Positions 9,643 through 40,795 of a DNA stretch of 59,554 bases are shown here, piece by piece. The position numbers were made by a program, and so were the translations under genes. Each line of letters opens with the position of its first letter. Position 1 is the stretch's first letter. This DNA is from a virus. Under the pieces are notes generated by a model. It made no database searches, was not told where the DNA came from, and saw only the letters and a program-made list of their open reading frames with translations. The stretch is from positions 1 through 59,554 of the IMG/VR virus record IMGVR_UViG_3300001799_000004, one strand, 5' to 3'.

Positions 9643-9674
9643 CAACTTTACTATCAATAAAAATCTTTAAAACA

Positions 9675-21001: not shown

Positions 21002-21057
21002 AACTGAAAATTAAATAGCAGTGGGCAAATGATTACCCACTGCTAAAATACAACAAA

Positions 21058-24000
21058 TCATCTCACTATAATTAATTTTCCCGGTACTGATCCATTTTTA
21101 CTGATCAGCACATAGACATATACACCTGAAAAAAGTTTGCCAGGTTGGTAAGAATAAATGCCTGTTGATGAATTGATCGAAAGAATATCAATTAAAGTAC
21201 CTTGTCCGGAATAAATCCTTATTTCAGCTTTTTCATTATTTTCAGGCAAGGAGTACACGAATTCAATCACATCACTTGCTGGGTTAGGTTTTGCAACAAT
21301 TTGAGCGGTTCTGGATACATTTGGTTCGGTAGCAGGCTTAGGTGTTGAGTTTTTCAAGTTATTTGACATATCAAGCTCGTTACAGTCCATGAAGTTATAC
21401 AAATTTCCATATGCGAACCCAAGGATACCTCTTGCTTGGGCTCCCCCCAGTCCTTGGCTGCTTTCTGCAATAAATTCCAAGTCTTCAAGTTCTATTTCAG
21501 AAAGCTCAAAAATACTTCGATCATCATTCAACCATCCGATCTGCATTTGTTTAAGGTCTGAATAGTATGTGTATTCTGCAGAGTCATAACCACTCAAAGG
21601 ATACATTGAAGGAAGCGTATCGAGCAAGTCCAATGCATTTTGGAACTCCCCGATGTGAATATACATGTCAATAATGTCTTGAGTAGAAGAAAAATTATTT
21701 AGCTCTTCCATCCAGGTTTTGTATAGGCCTGGATGCGCAATGGAATCTGATAGGTTACTTCTAATAATGTCATATGCGGCCCTTCGAGTAAGCATGTTAA
21801 AATGTGACACTTGTCCTTTTAACTTAAGGAGTTCGGATGAATCCAATAGCCCACCAACGCTATCTAATAGGTTCGAATATTGCAGGTAGCTAAGTTTTGC
21901 GGTTGAATAACTCGCTTCAGCTTGTTGGTATGCTGTATTACTTAACTTAATGTCATTATTCAAATAATGATCCGGGCACAGGTTCTGTAGATCAAGTTTC
22001 ACAGGGATAACTTGATAAACTTTCACAGGTTCCTCATTGCTAATATTTTCATTGTAAAAGTAATAGATTTCGTATGGTGCCCAATTATCAAAGTGGTGTG
22101 ATGCTGTAGATGAAAAAGTATTACCTGCAACATAACTTAAATTACCTTGATACTCTTGAATTCCAGATAGATTTTGCCCATGGACCGCAAAATCAACCTC
22201 ATTCTCCCGATTCAAATTACATAAATAGGTCAATCCGCTAAAGCGTTCACCTTCATAATTCTGCCCTTTTGCGTAATTCGCGGTAAACAGATTCACAAAA
22301 TCATTTTTGTAGATTTCATCATATTTATTGTTTGTATTTTTCGTTACGATCCCGTAATTACGATAAACCGCTGGTCCCTCGTTAATAAAAAATAAGTTGT
22401 TTTCGATAGCAAAGCGCTTGGAGTTGTCAAGCTGTATTCCAGTACTAGTGGCTTCGCTGCACCCAGGATGAGAACCTAATTCAAATGAATTATTAACAAC
22501 AACAGCATCTTCTACACTATTCAAGTGGATCCCATATCCGTTATTTGTGAAAACTCCGTCCTGGATCGAAATTAATGAATAGGTAGATACATTAGAAGAC
22601 ATGATTGCCTTATAAAAGCCATTAAATTCCGGTGTCACATAATCGCCTTTAGGGCATGGTACAGTGTTTGATTCACAAACACCACAAATATTAAAACCAG
22701 CATCAAATGATTGTATTCCATATACCGTAGAAGAACCTTCAATGTAATCATTGATAAATGTACAACCATGGAACTTAACTCCCTTTACTCCCCACATATA
22801 TACATGTTCAATATCAATATCCTGATACCCTGAGAAAGTGTTATCGAAAATAAATGTGCATTCTTTAAACTTACATTCATTGTCATATTCTATTGAGTTG
22901 AATATATTTTTATACCCTGATATTTCAATTGATCTTCTGTTATTTCTAAAAGTCGAATTCTTTGCAATAATTATTCCACCGCTATAACAACTACTATAAC
23001 CAATTCTCGTCCTTATTGCTGTCTGGGCGTTTTCAATTGTTGCATGGTCAAGAACAACTTTCCCTTGAGCCTGCGGATGCCCTGGGTAAGCATATTGGTG
23101 GTCATTGGGATTGCCCCAAACCTCAATACCTGACCAGGTGTCATTCTCTCTACCACAGTAAGGAATATGTGTGATTTTACCATTTTCTACAGTTAAGACA
23201 CCACCTGTTTTAACAATAATTTTTGTATCCTTCCCCATCATCAATTCTCCCGAAATCTTCAGGTTTACTCCACTCTCGATTATAATGTTTCTTGGAGAGT
23301 ATCTTCTGTTGGTCCAAACTTGGTTTTCAGTTACGTCTATTTCAGGTATGTAGTCAATGGCCTTGCAAACTGCTTGGTAAGTGTTCAACCTCCCAAATCC
23401 CATTTTCTCATTCCATAGGTTTTCATCGTATAGTACTCCACCTTCTTTATCTGCGGTAGTACTTAGAATATTCCTAACACTCCCTTCTTCTTCGACACCA
23501 CCATTAGAAAGATACGGGTTAACTGATAGCATTAAACCAATTGTTGCAGAAACCATTGGGGTTGAGAATGACGTACCAGAATTAACTACAGTTTGATAGT
23601 CATGTTTGATTAATTCTATATTTACACCCGGCGCCACTATCTCCATCTGCGCCCCATAACTAGATTGCTCCCACCATTCATCCAAATCTGTAGTTGCGCC
23701 TACAGCAATTACTAAATTGCTTCTTGCAGGATAATTAACATAATTGTAACCTGTGTTTCCAGAGGATGCGACCATAATTACCCCATTATCGTAAGCATTT
23801 TGAATAGCATCCTTGAGCACATCAATTTCTCCATGTGATCCAGAAGGCACACTTAGTGACATATTAATAACATTGGCCTTCTTATCAACTGCGTAATTGA
23901 TTGCGCTTTCAATCTCAGCAGTGAAAAAACTTTGACGTTGGTGGCATTCACCAAATTCATATTTCTGTTCAATATCAAGAACTTTGATTGGTAATATCTT

Positions 24001-24852
24001 CAATCCATAAAGTCCTGCATCAATGTCTCCACCTCCTATTCCATCAACAAGAGTTGAATTGTTAGCTTTTGCCCCAATAATACCGGCAACTCCATTTCCA
24101 TGCCAAAATTCATTTGTAGGTCTGACATCGTTATCAGATGTCTTAACAAAGGAGCAGTTTTCAATTAATTCAATATTATTAAAATCCCAACCTTTCATGT
24201 CATTAAGATAACCATTCCCATCTTCATCCTCATCATTTCCCTGCGGGTCATCATCAGTTAACCATGGATCAGAAAAGTTATGTTTAACAACATCATACTC
24301 ATTTTCTATCGCCCCGAAGTCATAATTATCCCAGCTTAGGCCTGCATCAATTACAGCAACAACAATATTAGTGTCACCCCGAGTCAAATTCCAGGCGCCA
24401 GGATTATTTTCATCATACCATACCCCGATGTTGTCAAGGTATGGATCAGCATTTTGGTTTTGTTGATCTTCCACCACTGGGATTGAATAGTAAAAATGAA
24501 TTGTTAAATTTTCGACAATCGGATCGTCAGAAATATCGTTGCAAATTGATACATAGTTACGTCCTACCGGTAGTAAATACTGTTTGTATTTACTGTTGAA
24601 CGTTCTAAATATTGTTAGGTTATTTTGCGTTTCAAAATAGCTAATCTGAGGACTTTGAATGATATTGCTGAACTTTACTGATACAATTGTGGAATCAATC
24701 AGGACCGTATCATATAATCCATAAATGTAATAATTCCCGTTAACATGCTGTATGGTATCATTACCAATTGTGAACTGGGTAGCAATAAGATTATTGCTCA
24801 CCAGGTACATACAGATCATTGCGATCAACTTAATCAATGTGTACTTTTTCAT
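21058..24852 (-). CDS. Secreted subtilisin-like (S8) protease with beta-helix region and T9SS sorting domain
   Basis: A 1264-residue exported protein. After a signal peptide and a short pro-region comes an S8 peptidase domain with the full triad: Asp 169 (VVAVIDAG), His 251 (WHGNGVAGI) and Ser 428 (SGTSFSTP), plus oxyanion Asn 366 (ASSGNTG). From about 520 to 930 there are repeated strands typical of a right-handed parallel beta-helix. A helical stretch follows, then a T9SS type A sorting domain at the end (PNPASDVIEF, GVYVYVL). It should be a surface or secreted protease. It lies 56 bases upstream of the beta-propeller-like gene on the same strand, so both may be co-transcribed. Such large T9SS cargo is unusual in a phage. 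Confidence 0.9.
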   Translation of the reverse strand: MKKYTLIKLIAMICMYLVSNNLIATQFTIGNDTIQHVNGNYYIYGLYDTVLIDSTIVSVKFSNIIQSPQISYFETQNNLTIFRTFNSKYKQYLLPVGRNYVSICNDISDDPIVENLTIHFYYSIPVVEDQQNQNADPYLDNIGVWYDENNPGAWNLTRGDTNIVVAVIDAGLSWDNYDFGAIENEYDVVKHNFSDPWLTDDDPQGNDEDEDGNGYLNDMKGWDFNNIELIENCSFVKTSDNDVRPTNEFWHGNGVAGIIGAKANNSTLVDGIGGGDIDAGLYGLKILPIKVLDIEQKYEFGECHQRQSFFTAEIESAINYAVDKKANVINMSLSVPSGSHGEIDVLKDAIQNAYDNGVIMVASSGNTGYNYVNYPARSNLVIAVGATTDLDEWWEQSSYGAQMEIVAPGVNIELIKHDYQTVVNSGTSFSTPMVSATIGLMLSVNPYLSNGGVEEEGSVRNILSTTADKEGGVLYDENLWNEKMGFGRLNTYQAVCKAIDYIPEIDVTENQVWTNRRYSPRNIIIESGVNLKISGELMMGKDTKIIVKTGGVLTVENGKITHIPYCGRENDTWSGIEVWGNPNDHQYAYPGHPQAQGKVVLDHATIENAQTAIRTRIGYSSCYSGGIIIAKNSTFRNNRRSIEISGYKNIFNSIEYDNECKFKECTFIFDNTFSGYQDIDIEHVYMWGVKGVKFHGCTFINDYIEGSSTVYGIQSFDAGFNICGVCESNTVPCPKGDYVTPEFNGFYKAIMSSNVSTYSLISIQDGVFTNNGYGIHLNSVEDAVVVNNSFELGSHPGCSEATSTGIQLDNSKRFAIENNLFFINEGPAVYRNYGIVTKNTNNKYDEIYKNDFVNLFTANYAKGQNYEGERFSGLTYLCNLNRENEVDFAVHGQNLSGIQEYQGNLSYVAGNTFSSTASHHFDNWAPYEIYYFYNENISNEEPVKVYQVIPVKLDLQNLCPDHYLNNDIKLSNTAYQQAEASYSTAKLSYLQYSNLLDSVGGLLDSSELLKLKGQVSHFNMLTRRAAYDIIRSNLSDSIAHPGLYKTWMEELNNFSSTQDIIDMYIHIGEFQNALDLLDTLPSMYPLSGYDSAEYTYYSDLKQMQIGWLNDDRSIFELSEIELEDLEFIAESSQGLGGAQARGILGFAYGNLYNFMDCNELDMSNNLKNSTPKPATEPNVSRTAQIVAKPNPASDVIEFVYSLPENNEKAEIRIYSGQGTLIDILSINSSTGIYSYQPGKLFSGVYVYVLISKNGSVPGKLIIVR

Positions 24853-25259
24853 AACGTTTTAATATTGGTTTGTAAAGAATTTATTAGCTAACTTGACAAC
24901 CAATACATCGGAGAGGCCCTAGCCGGGCCATTCTTTAGGTAGGATTTCATGCAGAAGATATTAAACGGGAAGAACTTACATCCTTAGTAACAAAACATCG
25001 TCAAAACGCACATCTAAAATTCGTCTTTTTTCAATATTGTTATTCAGTCTAAGTACAAATAACCTATGATATATTATATAGGTCCTCTTTTTCTCCCTTA
25101 TCATTGCCTTACTCTAAGGCTAGTCTATACTACCTTAATCCCTCCTGTAAAGTTTCCGTTTTAACCACTTCTTAACACGGATTTCCGTTCTAATTAACCG
25201 AATCCATTCTCCTGCTGCTCGGTTTTTATCCTTATTTACCTCCTGTGTTTGTGTGTGTC

Positions 25260-25284
25260 AGCAGAAAACAACACATTTTCTGCT
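25260..25284. repeat. Inverted repeat upstream of the symporter
   Basis: AGCAGAAAA at 25260-25268 and TTTTCTGCT at 25276-25284 are perfect 9-base complements around a 7-base loop. No T-run follows in either direction, so an operator or mRNA hairpin is more likely than a terminator. Confidence 0.5.
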
Positions 25285-25290
25285 CAAATT

Positions 25291-25337
25291 AGGTGTCTAT
25301 TACAGGGACATATAATTTTACCCTGATTTTTACACCT
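25291..25337 (+). promoter_or_regulatory. Nested stem-loop leader before the symporter start
   Basis: AGGTGT (25291-25296) pairs with ACACCT (25332-25337), enclosing CAGGG (25303-25307) paired with CCCTG (25321-25325). The structure ends 18 bases before the symporter ATG and could control its translation or be a transcription-factor site. Confidence 0.3.
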
Positions 25338-25355
25338 TTAACACTATAAAAAGAC

Positions 25356-26762
25356 ATGGAACAATCGACAGGATTCCTGCTCATCCTTGCCTATTTCGTG
25401 GCCGTTTTTCTTATCACGCGGATGATCGGACGAAAGAGTTCATCAAAACTTGATTATTTACTTGCAAACAGGGCTATACCAGGATGGTTGGCAGCTTTTT
25501 CAATCGCTGCAACATGGGTGTGGGCTCCCTCAATGTTTGTTGCCTCAGAGAAAGCTTTCACTTCAGGATGGGTAGGCGTTTTCTGGTTTGTAGTCCCCAA
25601 CGTGCTTACCCTTGTCATATTTGCCTACTTCGCAACATGGATGCGAAAGAAATATCCTGATGGGTGGACATTCTCGGATTATATCCGGGCCAAATACAGC
25701 AACCGCACCCATAACCTTTACCTTGTTGAAAGCTTCGGACTGCAAACACTCAGCCTTGCCGTGCAACTGCTTGCAGGAGCAACCATCATGTGGAAGATTA
25801 CCGGACTGCCTTTCTTGCTGACTACGATCCTGCTTGCAATCATTCCTTTGATTTACACTTTCTCCAAAGGACTCCGTGCAAGTGTCATTACCGACTACTG
25901 GCAGATGTTGTGGATAATTGTAGTCCTGCTGCTCGGTTTACCTTTTATGTTTATCAATGGCGGAGGCATGGAAACCCTCATTGAGGGATTATCAGGAAAA
26001 GCCGGCGATATAACAGGCATGTTCAACGGCAAAGGGCTGGCTGTAACACTTGCCTTTGGAATTCCCACTACCATAGGTCTGCTCTCCGGTACATTCGGGG
26101 ACCAGATGTTCTGGCAAAGGGTCTTTGCAATAAAACAGGGTCAGGTTAAAAAAGCTTTCCTCTGGGCAGCTGTAATATTCGCCTGTGTGCCCATTTCCTT
26201 AGCCATCTTTGGGTTCTTTGCTGCAGGTAAAGGTTTGGATATTCAGGACACACAACTTGTCAATGTTGGAGCCGTGATTGCTTTTACCCCTAACTGGTTC
26301 CTGTACCTGTTCATGGTGATGATCCTTTCAGGGCTTATATCAACTGTTGACAGCATCATATGTGCTGTTTCATCCGTCACTGGCCATGACCTCTACAACA
26401 GGATTAAAAAGCTTGACCTTATCGATGAAGTGGAGTTTGCAAAATGGTCAATGGTGTTTGTTACAATACTGGCCATCCTTATTGCTAACATTCCCGGGCT
26501 GAAGATACTTCACCTGTTTCTGATATATGGCACTCTGAGAGCCTCGGTGATGCTCCCTACTGCCTTTGCGATCAAAGGTATCAGAATGAGTGAACGGGGA
26601 TTGTTCTATGGCTTACTTACCAGTATGGTTGTTGGGCTTCCAATATTCGCCATTGGCAATTTCTCCGCCAACACAGTCCTAATCGTCACCGGCTCACTCT
26701 TTACCATCCTTGCCTCCGGAATCATCTCAATATCCCTGAAAGATGAAACCGCTAAAGTTTAA
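25356..26762 (+). CDS. Sodium:solute symporter (SSS family)
   Basis: A 468-residue membrane protein with about 13 hydrophobic helices. The SSS pattern is clear: KLDYLLANRAIPGWLAAFS near the first helices, WVWAPSMFVASEKAF in the sodium-site helix, SGTFGDQMFWQRVFAIK in the middle, and SGLISTVDSIICAVSSV, which matches the family's STxDS sodium-site helix (vSGLT helix 8). Length and motif order are those of a complete transporter. The substrate cannot be read. It leads a rightward chain that runs into phage genes and terminase. A transporter here is rare, and a nutrient-uptake or receptor-blocking role is inference. Confidence 0.88.
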   Translation: MEQSTGFLLILAYFVAVFLITRMIGRKSSSKLDYLLANRAIPGWLAAFSIAATWVWAPSMFVASEKAFTSGWVGVFWFVVPNVLTLVIFAYFATWMRKKYPDGWTFSDYIRAKYSNRTHNLYLVESFGLQTLSLAVQLLAGATIMWKITGLPFLLTTILLAIIPLIYTFSKGLRASVITDYWQMLWIIVVLLLGLPFMFINGGGMETLIEGLSGKAGDITGMFNGKGLAVTLAFGIPTTIGLLSGTFGDQMFWQRVFAIKQGQVKKAFLWAAVIFACVPISLAIFGFFAAGKGLDIQDTQLVNVGAVIAFTPNWFLYLFMVMILSGLISTVDSIICAVSSVTGHDLYNRIKKLDLIDEVEFAKWSMVFVTILAILIANIPGLKILHLFLIYGTLRASVMLPTAFAIKGIRMSERGLFYGLLTSMVVGLPIFAIGNFSANTVLIVTGSLFTILASGIISISLKDETAKV

Positions 26763-27012
26763 GGAGCATAACCAACAGTTGGGTCCACCACAAGGCATGT
26801 CAGAAGATGAATGCGCTTCCCTGCCTGTCTTTACCGATGGCAAACAATGTATTTCATGCTGGGAGCTCTCGCCAGAAGAAATTGACAAGGTTAAGAGAAC
26901 CGGCCGGATATGGCTTTCTGTGATGTCTGGCAAGACTCAACCACCGGTCTGGCTGTCAGCTGAAGAAACGGTCTTTTTCGAAAAACCTGATTTCCCAATT
27001 CATCTAAACTGA
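26743..27012 (+). CDS. Conserved small phage protein with CxxC
   Basis: An 89-residue protein. The core (FTDGKQCISCWELSPEEI, GRIWLSVMSGKTQPPVWL) is a widespread small phage family with one conserved Cys pair and a TQPPV motif; its function is unknown. The ATG at 26743 overlaps the symporter by 20 bases. The family core begins later, so ATG 26797, just after the symporter, is a good alternative. Confidence 0.65.
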   Translation: MKPLKFKEHNQQLGPPQGMSEDECASLPVFTDGKQCISCWELSPEEIDKVKRTGRIWLSVMSGKTQPPVWLSAEETVFFEKPDFPIHLN

Positions 27013-27013
27013 T

Positions 27014-27325
27014 ATGTACGACTTTGAGTCAACCAGGGTTAAACCCGATACACAGCTCGTAGCTGAAGTCCAAAAAGAATTCAAGCACCTTGGCCGGATA
27101 AGACTCAAGCCAGGCCACAGCCTTTTTGCCTTTAACACCAAAACAACACACCTGAAAAAGGTTGAAATTCAATCACAGGTAATGATTGACGTCAAAGGGC
27201 AAAAGAAAGAAACCAAAAGAGCATACCAGGAACCTGACACGGTCTACGTCACGGCACTCAACGCCAGGAACGCATTACGCAAAATTATTAATAGTTTCAA
27301 TCACCTAAAATCTAATCAAACATGA
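27014..27325 (+). CDS. Conserved small phage protein
   Basis: A 103-residue basic protein with alternating strands and charged loops (RVKPDTQLVAEVQKEFKHLG; YVTALNARNALRKIINSFN). It resembles phage proteins of unknown function found before terminase genes. The stop overlaps the next start by 4 bases. Confidence 0.55.
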   Translation: MYDFESTRVKPDTQLVAEVQKEFKHLGRIRLKPGHSLFAFNTKTTHLKKVEIQSQVMIDVKGQKKETKRAYQEPDTVYVTALNARNALRKIINSFNHLKSNQT

Positions 27326-27921
27326 AAAGGTTCTTTTCTATTCTGATGATCCTGCTTGCGACAGTCAGCCTATCCGGGCAGGTTTATGACGGTATCACGC
27401 AACCGACAAGGTTCAGATACTGGCTTCCGCTGACAACCTCTGTAAACACCCCGGGATCGCTTACCGCTGCCCCTTTTATGGGTTACAAGGTTCAACCTGC
27501 CAACTGGATATCGTTCACACCGATACTCCAGTACAACTTCAACCGTGAAGCGGCCATGCCTCAGCTGTGGCTTAACGTGAACTATCAGCAAAAGTATTAC
27601 CTGCTCTTCAGGTCCATCTATGACCTCAAGACAGAAGCATTCAGCGAGACGGTTTCCGGTACGGTCAAACTCAATAGTTATATGGTTGACTTTACTTGGG
27701 ATAACCTATATCGTAGTGACGGGTTTTTAATCAATGATCGATTACAGATCCTTGCCGGCTATGCATGGAAGCATCTGGTACTAAATGCCGGGTACTCGAT
27801 AAGGGACCGACCGGGATTTGTGACCAATGCACGTGTGAAGCTTACCAGCCTGTCGTGGCTACAATTCAGGTACGATTCCGGTACAGATACATTCACTCTT
27901 TCAACAGCAATACATATCTGA
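27322..27921 (+). CDS. Predicted exported beta-barrel-like envelope protein
   Basis: A 199-residue protein with a clear signal peptide (MKRFFSILMILLATVSLSGQ, cleavage near residue 20). Amphipathic strands of about 10 residues follow, separated by short turns, with many Tyr and Trp (WISFTPILQYNF, LWLNVNYQQKYYLLFRS, LQILAGYAWKHLVLNAGYS). This suggests an outer-membrane beta barrel of about 8 strands. It overlaps the PP-loop gene by one base (TGATG). Phage-made outer-membrane proteins can block receptors, which is one possible role. Confidence 0.65.
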   Translation: MKRFFSILMILLATVSLSGQVYDGITQPTRFRYWLPLTTSVNTPGSLTAAPFMGYKVQPANWISFTPILQYNFNREAAMPQLWLNVNYQQKYYLLFRSIYDLKTEAFSETVSGTVKLNSYMVDFTWDNLYRSDGFLINDRLQILAGYAWKHLVLNAGYSIRDRPGFVTNARVKLTSLSWLQFRYDSGTDTFTLSTAIHI

Positions 27922-28730
27922 TGCAGAAAGTTCTGACACCAGGCAGAAAGCAGACTGCCAGCAATGAGGCTTTTCAAAGACTCTGGGACAACATCGACAA
28001 AGTTGTTTCGCGGGACCATATTGAAAGCCTCGTTGCTGATGCTGTTTTAACAATCAGATCAAAAACCGCTAGCAAGAAAACAGGTTATGCCTGGTCTGGT
28101 GGAAAAGACAGCATCGCCCTGCAGGTCGTCTGTGAGCTCTCGGGAATAAGAAGCTGTGTTATTGGCTTGTCACAAGCACTCGAATATCCCCACTACCTGA
28201 GTTGGATTCATCTGAACAAGCCCGCAGGACTTGTCACATGGGATGCCAACATTGGATATCAATGGCTTCTACAAAACCCTCATATGGTCTTTCCTGAGGA
28301 TTCAAAGCACCTTGCAACATGGTATTCCCTTATTCAGCATGCAGCACAAAAGGATTTTTACAAACATGCCAGTCTTGACATTATTTGTCTTGGCCGCAGG
28401 CATCAGGACGGTAACTATACCGGTTCCGGTGGTCAGAACATCTACACCGATAAGTATGGTATAACCCGCTTTTCACCTATCGCACACTGGAAGCACGAAC
28501 ATGTGTTGGCAATATGCCACTATTACAAGAACAGGAACATACCCCCAATCTATAACGACCCTCAGGGGTGGATCAACGGCACAGGCGTGTGGCCGGTACA
28601 GACATCGAACCTCGGCCGTAAGCATTCCTGGGAACTGCTTTACCAAATCAGCCCGGAGACATTACTCATTGCGGCAAACTATTTCAATGAAGCAAAATCA
28701 ATACTCCAAAGTCATGGCAAAGCAAGCTAA
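27921..28730 (+). CDS. PAPS reductase-like PP-loop ATPase (first copy)
   Basis: I start at ATG 27921, coupled to the previous stop in TGATG; an upstream frame to 27765 lies inside the beta-barrel gene. The 269-residue protein has the PP-loop SGGKDS (residues 59-64) and later CLGRRHQDGN and WKHEHVLAICHYY, as in PAPS reductase-like phage proteins. Members include DndC-type enzymes that add sulfur to DNA and tRNA-thiolation proteins. A ParB-like gene follows at once, giving a PP-loop/ParB pair that is repeated downstream. Confidence 0.82.
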   Translation: MQKVLTPGRKQTASNEAFQRLWDNIDKVVSRDHIESLVADAVLTIRSKTASKKTGYAWSGGKDSIALQVVCELSGIRSCVIGLSQALEYPHYLSWIHLNKPAGLVTWDANIGYQWLLQNPHMVFPEDSKHLATWYSLIQHAAQKDFYKHASLDIICLGRRHQDGNYTGSGGQNIYTDKYGITRFSPIAHWKHEHVLAICHYYKNRNIPPIYNDPQGWINGTGVWPVQTSNLGRKHSWELLYQISPETLLIAANYFNEAKSILQSHGKAS

Positions 28731-29292
28731 AGTCAAACATGAAGAAACAACCCTTAGCCTATCGTTATTGAAGGACTTCCCGGGAAATCCCAACACACAT
28801 ACACATGCACAAATAGATGCTCTGGTTCAGAGCATGGAACGTTACGGCCAGTATTACCCGATCATCTGTGATGAAGATTATCAGATACTCTGTGGCCATG
28901 GAAAACGTCTGGCCCTTGAGAAAAAAGGCGAGAAAACGGCCAAAGTCACTATCATCCGTGGACTCACTGACAAACAGAAGATGAAGCTTCTCATTGAAGA
29001 CAATAAGATTCAGTCAATGAGTTACGTGAACTTCACGGAGGTTGAGAAAATCATCAAACAGATCGGAGAACTTGACATCATTGGCTTTTCACCTGAGTAC
29101 CTCGACACCATCATTAACGAGATTTCACCGGACAATATGGGAGTTGATTTCTCAAAGCCACCGCAAAGAGGTGACAACTTCACGCCTGAACAGGAAGCAA
29201 CTGTTGATGCACAGTTTGAAAATATCGAAGCCGGAATGAGCGGGGTAAGAACAATGACATGCCCACACTGCGGAGAACTAATCAATTTCTGA
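28714..29292 (+). CDS. ParB-like nuclease-domain protein (first copy)
   Basis: A 192-residue protein starting at ATG 28714, 17 bases inside the PP-loop gene. It has the ParB-like fold: LLKDFPGNPNTHTHAQID, LVQSMERYGQYYPIICDED and the ILCGHGKRLALEKKGEK box, then a helical part (FTEVEKIIKQIGELDIIGFS). The C-terminus ends in MTCPHCGELINF, a Cys pair. Small ParB-like proteins beside PAPS reductase-like genes are common in phages; they may be ATP/CTP-using kinases or regulators rather than nucleases. Confidence 0.82.
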   Translation: MAKQAKVKHEETTLSLSLLKDFPGNPNTHTHAQIDALVQSMERYGQYYPIICDEDYQILCGHGKRLALEKKGEKTAKVTIIRGLTDKQKMKLLIEDNKIQSMSYVNFTEVEKIIKQIGELDIIGFSPEYLDTIINEISPDNMGVDFSKPPQRGDNFTPEQEATVDAQFENIEAGMSGVRTMTCPHCGELINF

Positions 29293-29294
29293 TC

Positions 29295-29816
29295 ATGGAA
29301 AAAGACCTGTTTAAGCCACTCAGGGAAATGCAGTTCGTCAACAGGGAGTTGATACGCCCCAATGACTACAACCCAAACAAAGTTCTTGAAAAGAACCTCA
29401 AACTGTTAATGCAAAGCATCCTGACTAATGGGTTCTGTTTCCCAATAGTGATCCGACCCGACTACACTATCATTGATGGATTCCACCGCTGGCTTGTTTC
29501 TGGAAGGGAGCCGCTTAAAACAATGCTGGGCGGAAAGATTCCAGTTGTGATAGTGGCGCATGAGGACGAGAGCAAGAATATGTACGGTACTGTCACCTTT
29601 AACAGGGCTCGTGGAACACACTTGCTTGAACCGATGGAAAACATAGTCAAGTCACTCCTGGACAAAGGCAAGACTGTGGATGAAATTTCGAAAGAAATTG
29701 GCATGAGCCGCGAGGAGATCTTCCGGCTTTCGAAGATTGACAGGGAGACATTCCTGAAGACTGTTATCAAGCGACAGACTTTCAACAAAGCAGAGGTTCT
29801 GAGGAGGTATCAATGA
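29295..29816 (+). CDS. ParB-like protein, IbrB type (second copy)
   Basis: I start at ATG 29295, two bases after the previous stop. The 173-residue protein has RPNDYNPNKV, LMQSILTNGFCFPIVI, IIDGFHRWLVSG (the DGxHR box of the IbrB/ParB-like group), then YGTVTFNRARGTHLLEPME and an HTH-like end (DEISKEIGMSREEIFRL). It overlaps the start of the DUF3440 gene by 4 bases. IbrB/IbrA pairs are known from E. coli prophage-like elements, where they activate eib genes. Confidence 0.82.
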   Translation: MEKDLFKPLREMQFVNRELIRPNDYNPNKVLEKNLKLLMQSILTNGFCFPIVIRPDYTIIDGFHRWLVSGREPLKTMLGGKIPVVIVAHEDESKNMYGTVTFNRARGTHLLEPMENIVKSLLDKGKTVDEISKEIGMSREEIFRLSKIDRETFLKTVIKRQTFNKAEVLRRYQ

Positions 29817-30895
29817 GGACTAAGGCGATAGATGTTGATGTGGTTACAGCTGCGGAAAGAAGGGTTCTTGAATCCTTTAACAAGCACAAATACATCAGCA
29901 TGTCTTTCTCCGGGGGAAAGGACTCTATCTGCATGGCTGATATTGTCATAAAGACAATGCAGAAATACAACATTGACTTCAGTAGGTTGATTGTTGTTTT
30001 CTACGATGAAGAAGGTATTTACCCGGATTTTGAGCAGATCGTCATAGAATGGCGCTCCCTGTTCCTTTCCCTGGGAGCAAAGTTCTACTGGTTTTGCTTA
30101 CCCATCAAGCACTACAACTGCTGCAACCGTCTTGAAAATGACGAGAGCTTCATCTGTTGGGAACCCGGCAAAGAAGATCTGTGGATTCGTCCTATGCCCA
30201 AATTTGCCATCAGGCACCATAAGGACTTCTCTCTTGGCATGACTTATCAAGTCTTTTCAAAGTATCTTTTTCAGGATATATACCAGATGGTAGGCCTGAG
30301 AGTCTATGAATCTGTACAAAGGAGACAATCTATTGCCGGGCAAAGCAAATCAAAGTTCCTCTACCCAATCTATGACTGGAGAGATAATGACGTATGGCTC
30401 TATATAGAGCGAAACAACCTGAAGTTTCCGGAAACCTATCTGTACCTCTACAAGACAGGTGTACCCATAAACAAACTGCGTATCAGTCAATTTTTTAGCA
30501 TTGACACAATCAAGAGCCTTCCAAAGGTACTCGAGTTTTATCCAAACCTATTCGAGAGAATTGTCAAAAGAGAGCCCAATGCAGACCTAGTAATGTTGTA
30601 TTGGGAAACGGATATGTTTCGGTCCTCACGACAGGATGATTCTTTTGATATCCGCAAAGACTATCGGGTAATCCTAAAGGAGGAAATCAAGAAAGCATCC
30701 CAACACCCAGACCAGTATCCCGGGTATAAACAAGTGAAGAAACTATTTGCCCGAGTAACACCCAAGACCACATCAGACACATGCCGTAGGATTTATCAGA
30801 TTTTAATTGCGGGTGACCCAAAGAACAGGACTGTCAGGGTAGTTACCGGGAAGCTTTTAGAGGATTCTAAAGACTATCCCGATGAGGCAAGGTGA
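29813..30895 (+). CDS. DUF3440 PAPS reductase-like protein, IbrA type (second copy)
   Basis: A 360-residue PP-loop protein with SFSGGKDSICM (PP-loop residues 33-38), YDEEGIYPDF, WRSLFLSLGAKFYWFCLPIK and KFLYPIYDWRDNDVWLYIE, where the last is the C-terminal domain of the IbrA/DUF3440 type. It forms a coupled pair with the ParB-like gene before it (ATGA). The two PP-loop proteins here differ in length and family, so the four-gene block is not a simple tandem duplication. A nucleic-acid modification or transcription-control role is inferred from family and position before terminase. Confidence 0.85.
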   Translation: MRTKAIDVDVVTAAERRVLESFNKHKYISMSFSGGKDSICMADIVIKTMQKYNIDFSRLIVVFYDEEGIYPDFEQIVIEWRSLFLSLGAKFYWFCLPIKHYNCCNRLENDESFICWEPGKEDLWIRPMPKFAIRHHKDFSLGMTYQVFSKYLFQDIYQMVGLRVYESVQRRQSIAGQSKSKFLYPIYDWRDNDVWLYIERNNLKFPETYLYLYKTGVPINKLRISQFFSIDTIKSLPKVLEFYPNLFERIVKREPNADLVMLYWETDMFRSSRQDDSFDIRKDYRVILKEEIKKASQHPDQYPGYKQVKKLFARVTPKTTSDTCRRIYQILIAGDPKNRTVRVVTGKLLEDSKDYPDEAR

Positions 30896-31295
30896 AAGAT
30901 TATCGAAAAAGAAGAAAAAGGCCAAGCTGCTTGACTGTCTCCGGGAGACTTCCGGAATTGTCGCATACGCCTGTGAGAAGGCAGGTATCAGCAGGGTCAC
31001 TTATTACAATTGGTGCAAAGAGGATATTGAGTTCAAAGGCAAGGCCGAGGATATACAGGAGCTGCAGATTGATGTGGCCGAGGCTGCATTACTCAAGAAA
31101 ATCAAGAATGAGGACACAACAGCTATAATTTTCTACCTCAAGACCAAGGGAAAAAACAGAGGCTACAGCGAACGGCATGAAATCGGAGGCGTAAACGGTG
31201 CACCAATCACCATGGATGTGGACACAAACCAACTGGGAGAGGACGAGAGAAAACTGTTGCTCAAAATAGCAGAAAGTCTCAATGTTAACGGATAA
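30882..31295 (+). CDS. Terminase small subunit
   Basis: A 137-residue protein with a basic start, then an HTH (GIVAYACEKAGISRVTYYNW CKED in order) and a helical multimerisation region (DVAEAALLKKIKNEDTTAII). This is the phBC6A51-type terminase small subunit that recognises pac/cos DNA. It overlaps the DUF3440 gene by 14 bases and the large subunit by 14 bases, the usual arrangement. Confidence 0.85.
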   Translation: MRQGERLSKKKKKAKLLDCLRETSGIVAYACEKAGISRVTYYNWCKEDIEFKGKAEDIQELQIDVAEAALLKKIKNEDTTAIIFYLKTKGKNRGYSERHEIGGVNGAPITMDVDTNQLGEDERKLLLKIAESLNVNG

Positions 31296-32754
31296 TGTTA
31301 TCAGGATGGCACTAAGTGTACAGGCTAGTGAATGCAGAAAAGATTTCTTCTACTTTGTGAGGACTTTCTGGGAAGTCATTATCAAGGAAGAACCGGTCTA
31401 TAACTGGCATATTGAGTTTCTGTGCCAGGAGTTGCAGGAACTCTCTAAATCCATTGTAGCACGTCAACCCAAACCTTATGACCTCATCATTAACATTCCC
31501 CCGGGTACAACCAAATCAACCATCGTGACGGTTATGTGGCCATCCTGGTTGTGGACTCAGGATCCAGCCTTGAGAGTCATCACAAATTCTTATTCAGCAG
31601 ACCTTTCTATTGATCATGCATCCAAGTCAAAGGACATCATTACAAGCGACAGGTACAAACTACTGTTCCATGAGATAAAGATCAGGATAGATAAGTCAGC
31701 AAAAGGGAGTTATGAGAACACCAGGACCGGGGCCCGGTACTCAACCTCAACAGGTGGCACGATCACTGGCAAGCATGGACACATTATAATCAATGACGAC
31801 CCACTGAACCCAAAACAGGCTACCTCAGACAGCTTGAGGCTTGCGGCCAACGAACACACCAAAACCCTTTCATCACGTAAGGTAAACAAAGAAAACACGC
31901 CAGTTGTCACCATCATGCAGCGTCTTCATGAGGACGATGTAACTGGTTTTCTGCTCAAAAAGAAAATAGAAAATATCAGGCACATCTGCCTACCAGCCGA
32001 AGTATCCGAAACTGTAAAACCTCCGGAATTGAAGGAGAAATACATAGATGGTTTTCTCGATCCGGTAAGATTATCACGTAAAGCTCTTGACGAAGCAAAG
32101 GTTGACCTTGGTAGCAAGGGATATGCCGGACAGTACGATCAGTCACCGACAGTTGAGGGTGGTAACATCATCAAAGAGGAATGGTTCAGGAAGATATCCC
32201 TGGCTCATTTTCTCGCTATTCGTGGCCGGGCACCGGTACATTTCTTTCTCGATACAGCCTATGACGAAAAGAAGAAAAAGTCAGACAACGACCCCTCAGG
32301 GATTATGGCCACGACCTACGTTAACAATGCACTGTTCATATTTGACGCCAGAAAGCTATACAAGGAGTTCCCAGACCTTATTAAGTTCCTGCCGGGTTAC
32401 CTCAGTGGAAACAATTACGATTCGCGCTCAACCCTTCGGATTGAACCAAAAGCCAACGGAAAAAGCGTCATACAACAACTCAAACGGGAAACAAAGCTTA
32501 ATGTTACCGAAACCCCATCCCCATCCGACAGCAAGGCGACCAGGTTAAACGCTGCTTCACCCTCAGTTGAATGTGGCCGGGTGTACCTTGTAGAGGGCGA
32601 CTGGAACGAATCATTCATTGATGAGGTTTGCGGCTTTCCCCTCAAGACACATGATGAATACGTGGACTTACTATGCTACGCCATTGACTATTACATAAGC
32701 GGCAAGATAGAGCTGCCCGAAGACCTTGATAAAACTTCACTCGGATTTCTTTAA
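31282..32754 (+). CDS. terL: Terminase large subunit
   Basis: A 490-residue packaging motor. The ATPase has a viral Walker A (IPPGTTKST, Lys 78) and Walker B (HIIINDDP, Asp 172-173), with coupling-motif-like TIMQRL after it. The C-terminal nuclease has an RNase H-like Asp (VHFFLDTAYDE) and later acidic residues (HDEYVDLLCYAIDYY). It cuts and pumps phage DNA into the prohead. Complete length, with portal next. Confidence 0.95.
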   Translation: MLTDNVIRMALSVQASECRKDFFYFVRTFWEVIIKEEPVYNWHIEFLCQELQELSKSIVARQPKPYDLIINIPPGTTKSTIVTVMWPSWLWTQDPALRVITNSYSADLSIDHASKSKDIITSDRYKLLFHEIKIRIDKSAKGSYENTRTGARYSTSTGGTITGKHGHIIINDDPLNPKQATSDSLRLAANEHTKTLSSRKVNKENTPVVTIMQRLHEDDVTGFLLKKKIENIRHICLPAEVSETVKPPELKEKYIDGFLDPVRLSRKALDEAKVDLGSKGYAGQYDQSPTVEGGNIIKEEWFRKISLAHFLAIRGRAPVHFFLDTAYDEKKKKSDNDPSGIMATTYVNNALFIFDARKLYKEFPDLIKFLPGYLSGNNYDSRSTLRIEPKANGKSVIQQLKRETKLNVTETPSPSDSKATRLNAASPSVECGRVYLVEGDWNESFIDEVCGFPLKTHDEYVDLLCYAIDYYISGKIELPEDLDKTSLGFL

Positions 32755-35782: not shown

Positions 35783-37195
35783 CTAACAATACAGGACTTC
35801 ATCATTAAATATTTTGATTGCTTCTTGCTCTTTGTAATACGCTTCTGCTCGTAATTTGTTCGCATTTAACGCAAGGTCATTAATTTGTTGTTGTGCGTTT
35901 TCGTTTTTCAAAATTGGTATCGGAACTTCAGCTAAATGTTCTACTTCAATTTCATCTACAACTGCACCGTAAGTCAAACGTTCGATAAGTACTTTACCGT
36001 AATCCGATTGCAACCAAATGTATAAGTAACCTGCAATATCTTTTAATTTCGGAACGACTCTCAATACGTGTTCAGACATAGCCCATTTATTCCAATGTTC
36101 AGGTATAATTTGTGTTTTTCCGATAGTTCCGCTTCTTGTAATTGCAATCATATTTTCTTCAATAAACAAATCTTTATCAACTCTTTTACTGTGCAAATGA
36201 GTTGAAAGATACTTCTTAGGTGTTGGGTCTAACTCTAAAATTTGCTTGCCACCGAGAAAGATAGTTCCGTGGTCACTTTCAACATAGTTTCGCTTAAACC
36301 TCCCAGCTTGGATTATTTTTTTGGAAACATTTATATCGTCAAGTCGCTTTATTGTCGCGCCTTCGTCAAATAAACAATCCAAAATGCTTGACACAACTGG
36401 GTTGTGGTAAGAACCGTCAAAACGATTATTCAATAAATCTAAACGAACGGAAAATGTTCTTACTTCAGAATTTTTATCATAAAGATCGGGCAGCAAATTT
36501 TCAACAGGGGGCAACTTCAATTCATTAATGAGTAATCTTTCAGCTTGGTCAATTAGTTCATTTGCTTGGTCTCTTAAGTCAAACGACTGAATGACTAAAT
36601 TGTGGATTTTTAATCTTATTGGCTTTGAAGGATAGGGCACATGAACTTCTTCCAAATGTTCAGGCTCAATGTGTTTAATTACTGCACCGTAGTTATTTGT
36701 TGTAATTAAACTTTGTCCTGTTTCGCTAATAAGGTAAGCATAGACAAAACCAATATCTTCCTTGTCTTTAACGTTTATCCTCAACAAATCATGGCTGAAT
36801 ATTTGTCTATCAAATGAATTGTTTACTATAGTACATTTGCCAATTGTTCCAGAACAAGTCATCAAGATTTGCCCTTTACTTACACGTAACGCTTCAATAT
36901 CGGTATTCGTGAGGTCTGAAATGTATTTGTATGGCTTAGGATAAAGTTCCAAGATTTGTGAAGGCTGGAAAATAGGGTAGTTTGATTTTTCAATATAAAT
37001 TCTTTTGAAACGTTCTCTATGATAAGCCAAAGCCAAACCATTAGCACCACAAACTTTCTTTATTTCCCACTTGCAGTTTTTTAAAACTTCCTTTGCTTTC
37101 AGCGCTTCAACATTAAAAACATTTGCTTCAAAACGAAGTTTAGCAGCAAAAACTTCTTCAATGCTTACGCTTGCATATTTTAAAGTTTCTACCAT
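35783..37195 (-). CDS. Restriction-modification specificity subunit (two TRDs)
   Basis: I start at the Met 9 codons into the open frame (37195, MVETLKYASV), which overlaps the methylase stop by 7 bases; an earlier ATG at 37219 would overlap by 31. The protein has two HsdS-type target-recognition half-domains. Both have the ILELYPKPYKY/ILELDPTPKKY pattern, an SGTIGK turn and a YLIS/YIWL segment, each followed by a helical spacer. It directs the fusion enzyme upstream to its target. A full-length two-domain S protein implies a bipartite asymmetric target. Confidence 0.88.
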   Translation of the reverse strand: MVETLKYASVSIEEVFAAKLRFEANVFNVEALKAKEVLKNCKWEIKKVCGANGLALAYHRERFKRIYIEKSNYPIFQPSQILELYPKPYKYISDLTNTDIEALRVSKGQILMTCSGTIGKCTIVNNSFDRQIFSHDLLRINVKDKEDIGFVYAYLISETGQSLITTNNYGAVIKHIEPEHLEEVHVPYPSKPIRLKIHNLVIQSFDLRDQANELIDQAERLLINELKLPPVENLLPDLYDKNSEVRTFSVRLDLLNNRFDGSYHNPVVSSILDCLFDEGATIKRLDDINVSKKIIQAGRFKRNYVESDHGTIFLGGKQILELDPTPKKYLSTHLHSKRVDKDLFIEENMIAITRSGTIGKTQIIPEHWNKWAMSEHVLRVVPKLKDIAGYLYIWLQSDYGKVLIERLTYGAVVDEIEVEHLAEVPIPILKNENAQQQINDLALNANKLRAEAYYKEQEAIKIFNDEVLYC

Positions 37196-39126
37196 TGTAT
37201 TCCTTCTTGCTTTTTCCAACGTTTAAAGATTGACGGAACTTCTGTTGTTTGATCGTCTAATTCTGGTTCTTCATATGTTTCAATGTCGCCATTTTCGTTA
37301 AGATGTGTTCTGGAGAAATATAATACTTCTCCGTTCTTGTCTCTTTTTAAAATATCGGCTCCCCTTTTATCGTGTCCAACTTTATCAATCATTGCCATGA
37401 ATATGTTATAGCTGTGATCAGGCTCACTTCTTTCTTTATCTGTTTTTTTCTGTACAATTAGAACTGAGGTTTGTGTACCTGTTGACGGTTGGAAGGTATC
37501 CTGATGAAGATCAATGCTTGCTATTATGTAACAGTTGTTTAATAACCATTGTCTAATGAATGCCTTTCCAGGCGACCCCAATATGCTATCTGGCAAAACA
37601 ATAGCTAAACGTCCTCCCGGTTTTAAAAGTTGAACACAACGCTCAACAAATAACTCTTCTGGCGACATTGATTTACTTCCTCGAGCAATTTCATATTGGT
37701 TTAAAATTGCTGGGTCTTGAATAGGAATTTTACTTCCAAATGGTGGATTAGTAACTATTACGTCAAAAAGTGCTATGTCTTTAGCTGTTCTTATTTCTTT
37801 AAGGTCTAATCCAAATCTCTCAGCAAGGGTTTTCTTAAAATCTAAATCCCATTCGTGAGGTGGTAGTAAAGAATTTGCCCTTAAGATATTTCCGCTACCA
37901 TCATTATTCATGACCATATTCATTTTGGTAGCCTTAACCAAATCGGGGTTAATATCAAAGCCGAAAAAGTATTTGCCAGCGATAGCCTTTATTTCTTCAT
38001 TTGCTGTTTGCTTATGTGTTTCACTCCATTTATCTTTTGGCTTGCCTAACTTATCAGCAATTTTATTTTCAATCTGCTGAATTACATTATTCATTGCTTG
38101 AACTAAGAAACCACCCGTCCCACAGCTACTGTCCAAAACGTATTCACCAACCTTTGGCGCAATCATTTCAACCGACATTTTCATCACATTTCTTGGCGTG
38201 AAAAATTCCCCTCTATCACCTCTCAAGTTTGAACCTACAATTTCTTCATAAGCCTTTCCTTTTACGTCAATGTTTGTGTCAAGAAAGCTATATCGTTGAA
38301 GCTCTCCCACAACATAGGCTAATGTTCTTGGTGACAACAATAACTCGTCATTCCCTGCAAAAATTTGCTTATGCTTAGCTTTAACCTTAGTAAATATTTT
38401 TTCTATGCGTTTTTTTACTGTTAATTGCCCGTCTGGGTTATCCCTTTCCTTGGTTGAAACAAAAAACTCCGGTTCTTCCAGCAGGTTCCTTTCATCTTCA
38501 ATTTTGCAGAATATAATTTTCAATAATTCAAAGAATGCTACCTGCTTCTGAGGTCCATCAATGGCATGTATGTGATTGTGACATTTTTTAAAAGCATATA
38601 ACAGGTTGTCACCGCTCGCTTTTTGTTGACGTTTTCTGCTTGGCCTATCAATCTCTTCTATGGGTGTGTTGAATGAAAGTATGTCGATATAATCCTCAAA
38701 CTCAATTCTACCATTTGAATTAATGATTTTTCTAAACACTTCCTTGTCTTTACCATTAGTCCACATTCCCCATTCACAGTTACCGCTTGCTTGCATGTAA
38801 GATTTCAGTTGTCCCACCCCCTCTTTTTTGTCATTTGGACTGACATTCTCCTTTTTACATTCGACTACCAAGTGAATATTCTCCTGAGAAAAGTCAGCAC
38901 AATTTTTCATGAAAATGGCAATATCAACCCTCTTATTGGTTGAGCCTACTTTTATTGGTAGCTCAATTTTGATCAAAGACTTTGGATACTTATGCTCGTT
39001 TACTAACCTTTTCTCGATATTTTGTCTAACATATTCCTCTGGTGTATCTTTCCGGAAAACACCATCAATATAGTCTCTTACTCTACCTTCTGGTACTGTA
39101 ATTACTTGTATATCTTTATTTAACAT
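37189..39126 (-). CDS. Nuclease-adenine methylase fusion of a type IIB/I-like RM system
   Basis: A 645-residue protein with an N-terminal PD-(D/E)XK nuclease (RVDIAIF, Asp 68; VVECKKE, Glu 89 and Lys 91) and an N6-adenine methylase: motif I DSSCGTGGF (332-340), FTPRNV before it, motif IV NPPFGS (460-465). Separate HsdR is absent. Nuclease and methylase in one chain plus a separate specificity subunit is the design of BcgI-type (type IIB) systems, where the enzyme cuts on both sides of its site; BcgI A is similar in size. The gene is AT-rich relative to phage genes, suggesting horizontal gain. Confidence 0.85.
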   Translation of the reverse strand: MLNKDIQVITVPEGRVRDYIDGVFRKDTPEEYVRQNIEKRLVNEHKYPKSLIKIELPIKVGSTNKRVDIAIFMKNCADFSQENIHLVVECKKENVSPNDKKEGVGQLKSYMQASGNCEWGMWTNGKDKEVFRKIINSNGRIEFEDYIDILSFNTPIEEIDRPSRKRQQKASGDNLLYAFKKCHNHIHAIDGPQKQVAFFELLKIIFCKIEDERNLLEEPEFFVSTKERDNPDGQLTVKKRIEKIFTKVKAKHKQIFAGNDELLLSPRTLAYVVGELQRYSFLDTNIDVKGKAYEEIVGSNLRGDRGEFFTPRNVMKMSVEMIAPKVGEYVLDSSCGTGGFLVQAMNNVIQQIENKIADKLGKPKDKWSETHKQTANEEIKAIAGKYFFGFDINPDLVKATKMNMVMNNDGSGNILRANSLLPPHEWDLDFKKTLAERFGLDLKEIRTAKDIALFDVIVTNPPFGSKIPIQDPAILNQYEIARGSKSMSPEELFVERCVQLLKPGGRLAIVLPDSILGSPGKAFIRQWLLNNCYIIASIDLHQDTFQPSTGTQTSVLIVQKKTDKERSEPDHSYNIFMAMIDKVGHDKRGADILKRDKNGEVLYFSRTHLNENGDIETYEEPELDDQTTEVPSIFKRWKKQEGIQW

Positions 39127-39822: not shown

Positions 39823-40656
39823 TTAATAACTCGAAACTGGTTCAAATACTTCAAATATTGAAAGCTGTTGACCGGGTTTGTATTCTGGTAAAATGATCGT
39901 TTGCTTGACTGGTTCAGTCTGTTTCTCTGGATGTGCTTTGATTGGCTCTCCATCATTCGAATGCCAAACCTGCCAGGCAACAGATTGTTCTTTCCTGATA
40001 GGTACAATATGGGGCAATCCGCCGAGAGTGAAAATCCGTGGATTGATTTCATAGCCAAAGACAAAATGATCAGGCCACAGGCTGTCACCATTAAGTGCCT
40101 GACCTTTGCAGCCGTGCAGAGCAAGGTTAATTGCAGTCATTTTAGTGCAGATAACATCTACATCCTGACCAACGAGATAGTTGCCCGGGGCAACCTTATT
40201 AAATGCAAGTAGCATTCTGCCGGACCCGCTTGCCGGGTCATTTACTGTAAGACCAGTTCGTTTTTCATCACATTCGCTCAGGGGTTGCTGAATCTGAGCC
40301 ATGAAGTCACACACTGTTGGTGGGGTAAAAAACTGACCAAGGAATGAAGCTTTGCTGTAGGATGCAATTTCTTCATACAGGGTTCCCAGAGCATCATACC
40401 AGGCAAGATCTTCCGACATATTGTCGGCCATTGTGTTGACAAGAGCTGTGAACATTTCATTAAACCGGGGGTAATCTTCCTTGTAACGACCTTTGAGTTG
40501 ATCTGCCAGCTCCTTGTCACCTTCCCACAGGAAGCATGCAGTGGTGTAGTCTATGAAGTCCCTGAATATATCATAGTCATAGTAGTATCCCCGGAATGAG
40601 TTCAGCACTTTGACGAAGTGCCTGAGTGCAGGTGGAAAATCACGAGTCTTTGCCAT
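39823..40656 (-). CDS. N6-methylase-like protein lacking the catalytic NPPY/F motif
   Basis: I start at ATG 40656 (MAKTRDFPPAL), which overlaps the preceding small gene by 17 bases; the open frame extends to 40698. The 277-residue protein has the N6-methylase entry (FLGQFFTPPTVCDFM), SAM motif I (NDPASGSGRMLLAF) and a VGQDVDVICTKMTAIN segment. At the motif IV position the text reads GYEINPRIFTLGG, with no NPPY/F. It therefore probably binds SAM but may not methylate adenine. Proteins of this size and type recur in Bacteroidota mobile elements, so the loss may be functional rather than decay. Confidence 0.75.
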   Translation of the reverse strand: MAKTRDFPPALRHFVKVLNSFRGYYYDYDIFRDFIDYTTACFLWEGDKELADQLKGRYKEDYPRFNEMFTALVNTMADNMSEDLAWYDALGTLYEEIASYSKASFLGQFFTPPTVCDFMAQIQQPLSECDEKRTGLTVNDPASGSGRMLLAFNKVAPGNYLVGQDVDVICTKMTAINLALHGCKGQALNGDSLWPDHFVFGYEINPRIFTLGGLPHIVPIRKEQSVAWQVWHSNDGEPIKAHPEKQTEPVKQTIILPEYKPGQQLSIFEVFEPVSSY

Positions 40657-40795
40657 TTCTTCTGATAATGTAGCGTTCGCCATCCTCATTGTCGACAATG
40701 GCCAGCCTTTTGTCCTTACTCATTAATTGAACGATAGAGGAACTTGTCATTGTTTTGAATTCCTCTGGTGAAACGATAGTTTTCTGCTTTTTCAT
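40640..40795 (-). CDS. Short hypothetical protein, 51 residues
   Basis: An open frame on the minus strand, from ATG at 40795 to TGA at 40640-40642, upstream of the methylase-like gene. It encodes MKKQKTIVSPEEFKTM, a short helix, and a small beta hairpin (LAIVDNEDGERYIIRR). Composition and the overlap with the methylase start make it a likely real small gene. Confidence 0.5.
   Translation of the reverse strand: MKKQKTIVSPEEFKTMTSSSIVQLMSKDKRLAIVDNEDGERYIIRRNGKDS

Follow-up and report, generated by a model that had tools for sequence, protein, structure and literature searches.

What does a phage gain from carrying a solute transporter, two PP-loop ATPases and two ParB-like proteins directly in front of its terminase genes? 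The question is raised by the virus record IMGVR_UViG_3300001799_000004, analysed here over its whole length of 59,554 bases (the window), and by a cassette of genes on its plus strand that runs into the terminase genes. This cassette is carried by many unrelated phages, mostly of gut bacteria. Its PP-loop/ParB core appears to be fed with a small molecule, imported or made on the spot, and our tentative reading, in which we place somewhat less than even confidence, is that the cassette lets the phage modify nucleic acid and is fed by import. The genes in question, with lengths in amino acids (aa), are the following.

25356..26762, plus strand: SSF, a sodium:solute symporter of 468 aa that opens the run (Pfam SSF PF00474, 1.3e-30)
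26743..27012, plus strand: a small protein, 89 aa (phrog_11885, 1.4e-7, a PHROG without assigned function)
27014..27325, plus strand: a small protein, 103 aa, found in close relatives only (phrog_21065, 1.1e-4, its sole match)
27322..27921, plus strand: OMP, a predicted outer-membrane 12-strand beta-barrel, 199 aa (AlphaFold2, Foldseek)
27921..28730, plus strand: PP1, a PP-loop ATPase, 269 aa (phrog_424, 2.7e-11)
28714..29292, plus strand: ParB1, a ParB-like protein, 192 aa (phrog_620, 4.9e-36)
29295..29816, plus strand: ParB2, an IbrB-type ParB-like protein, 173 aa (phrog_2159, 1.5e-59; Pfam ParB_N, 3e-7)
29813..30895, plus strand: IbrA, an IbrA-like PP-loop ATPase, 360 aa (phrog_2302, 8.7e-73; Pfam PAPS_reduct, 3.4e-9)
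30882..31295, plus strand: terminase small subunit (TerS), a neighbour in the run (phrog_4044, 2e-9)
31282..32754, plus strand: terminase large subunit (TerL), a neighbour in the run (phrog_38, 8.1e-87; Pfam Terminase_6C)

An initial annotation of the window had described the four genes from PP1 to IbrA as overlapping or lying within 2 bases of each other in this order, and had taken them to form one functional unit before the terminase. The order and the place are borne out: all four genes lie on the plus strand, with spacings of -17, +2 and -4 bases and strong PHROG matches (an alternative start of ParB1 is possible at 28687). The notion of a single unit is supported as well, but the unit is larger than proposed and includes the transporter and, in phages of Bacteroidota, the barrel. 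It starts with the symporter at 25356, about 2.6 kb before PP1, and leads a run of 12 co-directional genes that extends to 35231 with spacings of -20 to +12 bases, in the order SSF, two small genes, OMP, PP1, ParB1, ParB2, IbrA, TerS, TerL, portal and one further gene. The terminase small subunit gene overlaps the 3' end of IbrA by 14 bases. No Bacteroides-type promoter was found by a simple pattern in the region 24853-25355, 5' of SSF. The 89-aa protein is confined to close relatives (loci L005-L007, L009, L010 and L013 of our collection), and the closest chromosomal relative of the cassette lies in a Bacteroidales metagenome-assembled genome (L027), the PP1 of which is 92% identical.

Relatives of the cassette were collected with PP1 or IbrA as seed, and the best 80 of 84, 184, 313 and 113 relatives were kept; the set of 84 comes from bacterial genomes, and the resulting counts describe the best-scoring part. 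The 95 IbrA-seeded viral loci were reduced to 43 distinct ones with at least 4.5 kb upstream, leaving out 28 duplicates and 24 loci with a short upstream part. All 43 have a transporter (SSF in 40, an ABC transporter in 2, a membrane protein that we call T3 in 1), and PP1 is present in 33 and absent from 10. Among the PP1-seeded loci in bacterial genomes (71 usable of 80), 65 have a transporter (SSF in 51, a membrane protein called T2 in 14), 4 have a cupin or glutaminase and 2 have neither; IbrA lies nearby in 64 of these 71. The PP1-seeded viral contigs (58 usable of 80) gave 55 loci with a transporter and 3 with a cupin or glutaminase. Hosts of the PP1-seeded genome loci belong to Bacteroidota, Bacillota (Lachnospiraceae, Oscillospiraceae, Selenomonas and others), Streptomyces and Atribacteria; a PP1 search of 150 genomes of the Streptomyces family returned only the locus already known. 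Prophages with the cassette reside in the cultured type strains Anaerotruncus colihominis DSM 17241 and Acetatifactor muris DSM 23669, and the cassette is also found in Faecalibacterium phages such as FP_Taranis.

Gene order was counted over the 212 distinct loci among a total of 329. The order SSF-PP1-ParB1-IbrA-ParB2 occurs in 101 of them, T2-PP1-ParB1-IbrA-ParB2 in 23, the Bacteroidota-type order of the window (SSF-OMP-PP1-ParB1-ParB2-IbrA) in 16, and SSF-ParB1-IbrA-ParB2, which lacks PP1, in 8; the remaining loci form smaller groups or are cut by contig ends. ParB1 and ParB2 are retained in nearly all loci. These counts bear on the proposal of the initial annotation that the four genes are two PP-loop/ParB pairs in a mirrored arrangement. 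IbrA and ParB2 do form a stable pair, but PP1 is optional, being absent from the 10 IbrA-seeded loci mentioned above and changing its presence 11 times on a tree of IbrA (96 rows, quick method). All genes lie on one strand, and the mirror is real as a gene order alone, and only in the Bacteroidota-type loci; since PP1 is optional, it is not a basic feature of the cassette. A recent duplication of one pair into the other is unlikely given the short overlaps found by hhalign, which joins only 35 columns of PP1 and IbrA and 52 of ParB1 and ParB2.

SSF opens the cassette in 40 of the 43 IbrA-seeded loci. It matches its Pfam family over the full length (profile positions 1-405 of 406; 107.1 bits against a cutoff of 22.8). 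Its closest solved relatives are the DUR3 urea symporters (profile E 5e-29), yet the panF, putP and actP models match as well, below cutoff, and reading the substrate from the symporter family was therefore abandoned. When the SSF of the window was searched in 50,697 phage records, 3 matched; one of them, MT836198, carries the cassette, and the other two hold distant SSF genes with no cassette genes within 8 kb. OMP has no match in Pfam, NCBIfam or PHROG. Its AlphaFold2 model (pLDDT 84.4, pTM 0.75) contains an N-terminal signal-like helix and about 12 long strands, and was matched by Foldseek to the KdgM porin and to a designed 12-strand barrel (E 1.7e-4 to 6e-4); the protein has, as a prediction only, the signal-like helix and transmembrane beta-barrel of an outer-membrane porin. 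The barrel was found only in Bacteroidota-type loci, and the Bacillota loci lack it. This restriction to hosts with an outer membrane fits a role in crossing the envelope. In Prevotella-type loci (L035 4693-6972, L184 4693-6972 and L192, the last two representing one contig) the symporter and the barrel are encoded in one open frame and joined by a coiled-coil-like linker, which suggests that they work jointly; an internal start may be hidden in the frame. A tandem SSF pair stands ahead of ParB1-IbrA-ParB2 in L234, L236 and L239.

Other loci fill the same slot differently. No Pfam family covers the membrane proteins T2 and T3, which have lengths of about 331 and about 368 aa. Their hhalign probabilities (99.6% for T2 with T3, 96.8% for T3 with SSF and 74.3% for T2 with SSF) rule out new folds, and as T2 is related to T3 and T3 to SSF, both may be reduced LeuT-type transporters. 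In L207, L226, L298 and L303, an ABC permease stands in for the symporter, together with a binding protein of the NMT1/SsuA type; SSF and the ABC permease are unrelated (hhalign probability 0.2%), and the replacement is thus non-homologous. Loci without a found transporter carry instead a cupin protein and/or a class II glutaminase. The glutaminase domain GATase_6 was matched in L082 (1.6e-6), L085 (7e-7), L262 (2.4e-10) and L072 (2.5e-13), less well in L172 (2.2e-5, under the cutoff) and weakly in L312 (0.0025), and Cupin_2 was matched in L318 (1.9e-11), L312 (2.2e-7) and L172 (2.5e-8). A second type of protein (L262, L263, L309, L031 and L002) is a weak candidate for a cupin, since it has no Pfam match and is tied to the first type only through a custom profile. 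The glutaminase gene begins directly after PP1. A true fusion of the two was considered and rejected, as the apparent joint open reading frames (ORFs) in L262, L263 and L258 proved to lie in different frames.

When loci were grouped into lineages at 95% IbrA identity, 127 of the 141 lineages had only a transporter, 11 only an enzyme, 2 both and 1 neither. At 70% identity the corresponding numbers were 37, 6, 0 and 1 (44 lineages), and at 50% they were 5, 2, 0 and 1 (p 0.11). On the IbrA tree the type of supply changes at least 10 times, and enzyme types are nested among importers (PJN03, L240/L254). PJN03 is a complete genome nested among SSF phages; it has the second-type cupin, no PP1, and no ORF with 5 or more predicted transmembrane segments.

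The other constant of the cassette is its site. Downstream sequence of 2.5 kb or more was present in 143 loci that carry IbrA and ParB2; in 135 of these, an ORF from a terminase-type cluster lies within 4.5 kb, and 5 of the other 8 have a split or frameshifted terminase (L017, L078, L088, L169 and L185). The cluster representatives include at least four Pfam terminase types (GpA, Terminase_6C, Terminase_6N and TerL), and the largest cluster (L071) has weak Pfam matches only. The cassette is thus bound to the point where the packaging genes begin, across phages whose terminases differ. In L078, L088, L169 and L185, the TerL gene is broken after about 100-150 residues, at a site that is similar in several of them, and unrelated genes follow; these interruptions are possibly due to an insertion or excision element.

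Turning to the core proteins, the AlphaFold2 model of PP1 (pLDDT 96.1) aligns with the PAPS reductase 6vpu_C (VIA-align Z 15.1, rmsd 3.4, 178 aligned residues) and, tied with it, the ATPPase of GMP synthetase (Z 14.5); FAD synthase, NAD synthetase, TtuA and LarE fall into the same range of Z 13-15. GKDS is invariant in PP1 (71/71), and the full SGGKDS motif is present in 59 of the 71 PP1 and in 267 of 291 IbrA sequences. The catalytic motif of PAPS reductase (CysH) is ECGxH; it occurs in 0/71 PP1 and 0/14 IbrA sequences, and simple sulfate assimilation was rejected on this ground. In IbrA one cysteine is near-invariant (91 of 96 sequences); the next-best ones occur in 69, 66 and 64 of the 96, so that a triad to hold an Fe-S cluster is missing. 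PP1 has no invariant cysteine (best position 61/71). ParB1 ends in an invariant C-terminal CPxC tail (C183, P184 and C186 in 14/14 aligned sequences) and is similar to the ParB portion found in DNA methyltransferases of phages and of type II (phrog_498, 3.4e-26; PADLOC PDLC03229, 1.9e-9). The match of IbrA to phrog_2302 spans residues 5-315, and its name rests on this match together with annotated homologues. The label DUF3440, given to this gene by the initial annotation, was not confirmed: its Pfam match is PAPS_reduct, and no DUF3440 match was listed at E 0.1, the presence of that model in the Pfam copy used being unchecked. Three tandem IbrA-like genes are found in L260 (7361-11546) and two in L117 (8461-10727). 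In L031 (Riemerella columbina), a shortened ParB2 and IbrA are joined in one 171-residue frame (1751-2901), and PP1 and the second-type cupin stand after the portal gene, as in a decaying or rearranged cassette.

How could these parts work together? Judging from gene order and overlaps, the run from SSF through IbrA to TerS and TerL would be co-expressed late in infection. A small solute, if fold and family are a guide, would be let through the outer membrane by the barrel, where the host is Gram-negative, and through the inner one by the Na+ symporter; in other lineages the ABC permease and binding protein, or the cupin and/or class II glutaminase, would provide the molecule. IbrA, and PP1 where present, might then adenylate a substrate with ATP, to which a nucleophile, either the solute or ammonia, would be attached; the PP-loop fold and the proximity of the glutaminase are what point to this step. 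With a glutaminase next to PP1 and a transporter that can be replaced, it seems that such a nucleophile or precursor is delivered to an ATP-dependent ligation. The ParB-like proteins, binding DNA or nucleotide, would direct the reaction to phage DNA just before packaging, and virion DNA would end up modified and thereby evade restriction by the host. Phage Mu offers, in Com/Mom, an example of a modification that is expressed late and shields virion DNA; unlike that system, the cassette has no Mom-like enzyme and would use another chemistry.

Supplying a DNA modification by import or by synthesis is known in principle. Phage 9g uses Gat-QueC, a glutaminase joined to a PP-loop enzyme, to make dG+ for its DNA, and some phages with 7-deazaguanine DNA encode the preQ0 importer YhhQ, so that a PP-loop enzyme, a class II glutaminase and a precursor that is imported or synthesised are shared with our cassette (PMC6884629). 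The cassette differs in that its PP-loop proteins are of the PAPS-reductase type and not the QueC type, its importers are symporters or ABC transporters and not YhhQ, and it adds ParB proteins and a cupin; no DpdA, QueC or Gat-QueC was found among the window proteins scanned, which were part of the window ORFs. The phage 9g precedent, the adjacency of glutaminase and PP1 and the replaceable transporter are the reasons for which we favour DNA modification, and we regard it as a plausible function of the cassette. The Dnd and Ssp systems (DndABCDE/SspABCD) likewise combine a PP-loop ATPase (DndC/SspD) with the ParB-superfamily protein DndB (PMC10853773). In contrast to them, the cassette has a transporter and, where a conserved cysteine set might be expected, a single near-invariant cysteine in IbrA, and DndA, DndD, DndE, SspB and SspC were not found among the same scanned proteins. 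With the DUR3/SSF symporters, SSF shares the full-length domain, and differs in being phage-encoded and placed within an enzyme operon.

The core pair itself is not new. Its matches to PHROG 2302 and, in the adjacent gene, PHROG 2159, with a 4-base overlap, make it a member of the IbrAB family by PHROG, in which an IbrA-type PP-loop protein stands beside an IbrB-type ParB in E. coli ECOR-9 and many phages. Unlike IbrAB, the cassette always comes with ParB1, nearly always with a transporter or a cupin/glutaminase, often with a second PP-loop enzyme, and is fixed at the terminase. IbrAB or the E. coli ybdNM homologues are mentioned, with no mechanism in the sections available, in PMC5874904, PMC4490671, PMC4541368, PMC6008420 and PMC9068703. 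A combination of transporter, PP-loop and ParB proteins was not described in the literature searched (open-licence papers only), the accessible portions of the QueC-family literature do not mention the cassette, and a word search of the main text of the FP_Taranis paper gave no IbrA and no transporter. Nor did these searches find in print the larger set in which the pair is joined by importer, barrel, PP1, ParB1 and an exchangeable supply. This set could represent a new class of modification, in which the phage's own import line through the envelope (porin and Na+ symporter) delivers a metabolite from outside, and PP-loop and ParB proteins join it to phage DNA, with a core that stays constant and a supply that can be exchanged; we hold this view with caution, and a new base, if found, would make the cassette such a class. 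If true, it would mean that phages depend on a gut or environmental nutrient for their DNA, tying their fitness to host diet and metabolites, and it would reveal a DNA base, and a way of making it, that are both new. It would also give a function to the widespread, unexplained phage IbrA/IbrB and "PAPS reductase" genes, which at present are mostly classed under sulfur metabolism.

Gene content, conservation, the replaceable supply slot and the terminase position are observed, and the folds of PP1 and of the barrel are predicted. Several points weigh against import-fed modification of phage DNA. Phages with the cassette are not known to contain any modified base. IbrAB occur without any transporter in the phages Flavobacterium 1H, Streptococcus CHPC1148, Fusobacterium phiFN37, Chlorobiaceae CV-1-33 and Microcystis Mwe-JY13, so that the core can do something without supply genes. 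The tied structural matches of PP1 mean that its fold leaves the chemistry undecided between amide and sulfur. No ATPase gene was seen beside the phage ABC permease/binding-protein pairs. The exclusion between import and enzyme is not significant at the 50% clusters, the switch between the two accounts for just 3 changes on the IbrA tree, and L072 and L073 carry symporter and glutaminase together, which rules out strict exclusivity. Finally, the cupin and glutaminase profiles were made after inspection of the transporter-less loci, and the count of loci with neither is therefore biased low.

The main rival, which we consider rather unlikely, is that IbrA/ParB2 and ParB1 are activators of late phage transcription, for which the importer and PP1 supply a co-regulator reporting on the medium. 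IbrAB are annotated in phage records as co-activators of prophage gene expression and reportedly activate prophage genes, in work by Sandt from 2002 that is the only experiment on IbrAB known to us; the cassette also stands at the head of the late run, where late regulators are often found. However, in FP_Taranis a RinA-like activator, separate from the cassette, is encoded just before it, Pfam recognised no helix-turn-helix (HTH) domain in the four core proteins, and two ATP pyrophosphatases, a symporter, a porin, a glutaminase and a cupin seem far more than a switch would need. Auxiliary metabolism or lysogenic conversion, by which the host would gain nutrient uptake and an ATP-dependent conversion yielding a small molecule or cofactor and not modified DNA, is also unlikely in our view. 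SSF, ABC transporters, cupin and class II glutaminase all deal with small molecules, and PAPS-reductase-like phage genes are commonly classed as host metabolism (PMC11318856, PMC10434257). Against this speak the retention of both ParB proteins, the absence of ECGxH, and a site that stays beside the terminase across at least four terminase types and is no spot for lysogenic conversion.

Sulfur modification of DNA or RNA in the manner of DndC or TtuA, with the importer bringing a sulfur compound, strikes us as quite improbable. The PP1 fold resembles PAPS reductase, TtuA and LarE, and the ABC binding proteins are closest to the sulfonate/taurine group (TIGR01728, 1.2e-30, under its cutoff). The DndC-like sulfur chemistry suggested by the initial annotation is nevertheless not specifically supported, given the missing ECGxH motif and cysteine triad, although the one retained IbrA cysteine leaves room for it; moreover, cysteine desulfurase gave no match in the genes scanned, and the glutaminase beside PP1 points to nitrogen. 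Defence or superinfection exclusion by the prophage is very unlikely. PP-loop proteins do occur in defence systems, such as BrxP of BREX type 4 and SspD (PMC12839542), and IbrA matches the BrxP PP-loop over 50 residues (2.3e-6), but SSF, PP1, ParB2 and the barrel have no PADLOC match, and constitutive expression in the lysogen is unlikely because the cassette is coupled to the late run.

Some further genes of the window lie outside the cassette. Among the late genes, on the minus strand (35783-39126 and 39823-40698), are a Type I-like S subunit, an N6 methyltransferase with an HSDR_N domain and part of a second methyltransferase; PADLOC matches of this block include mad5 and mad2. Just 5' of the cassette, also on the minus strand (19373-24852), lie the genes of a subtilase of 1264 aa and of another protein of 542 aa; each has a C-terminal sorting domain for type IX secretion, and the two are secreted proteins that a phage carries. 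The early region holds, apart from the cassette, a 611 aa ParB with an HTH domain (9549-11384).

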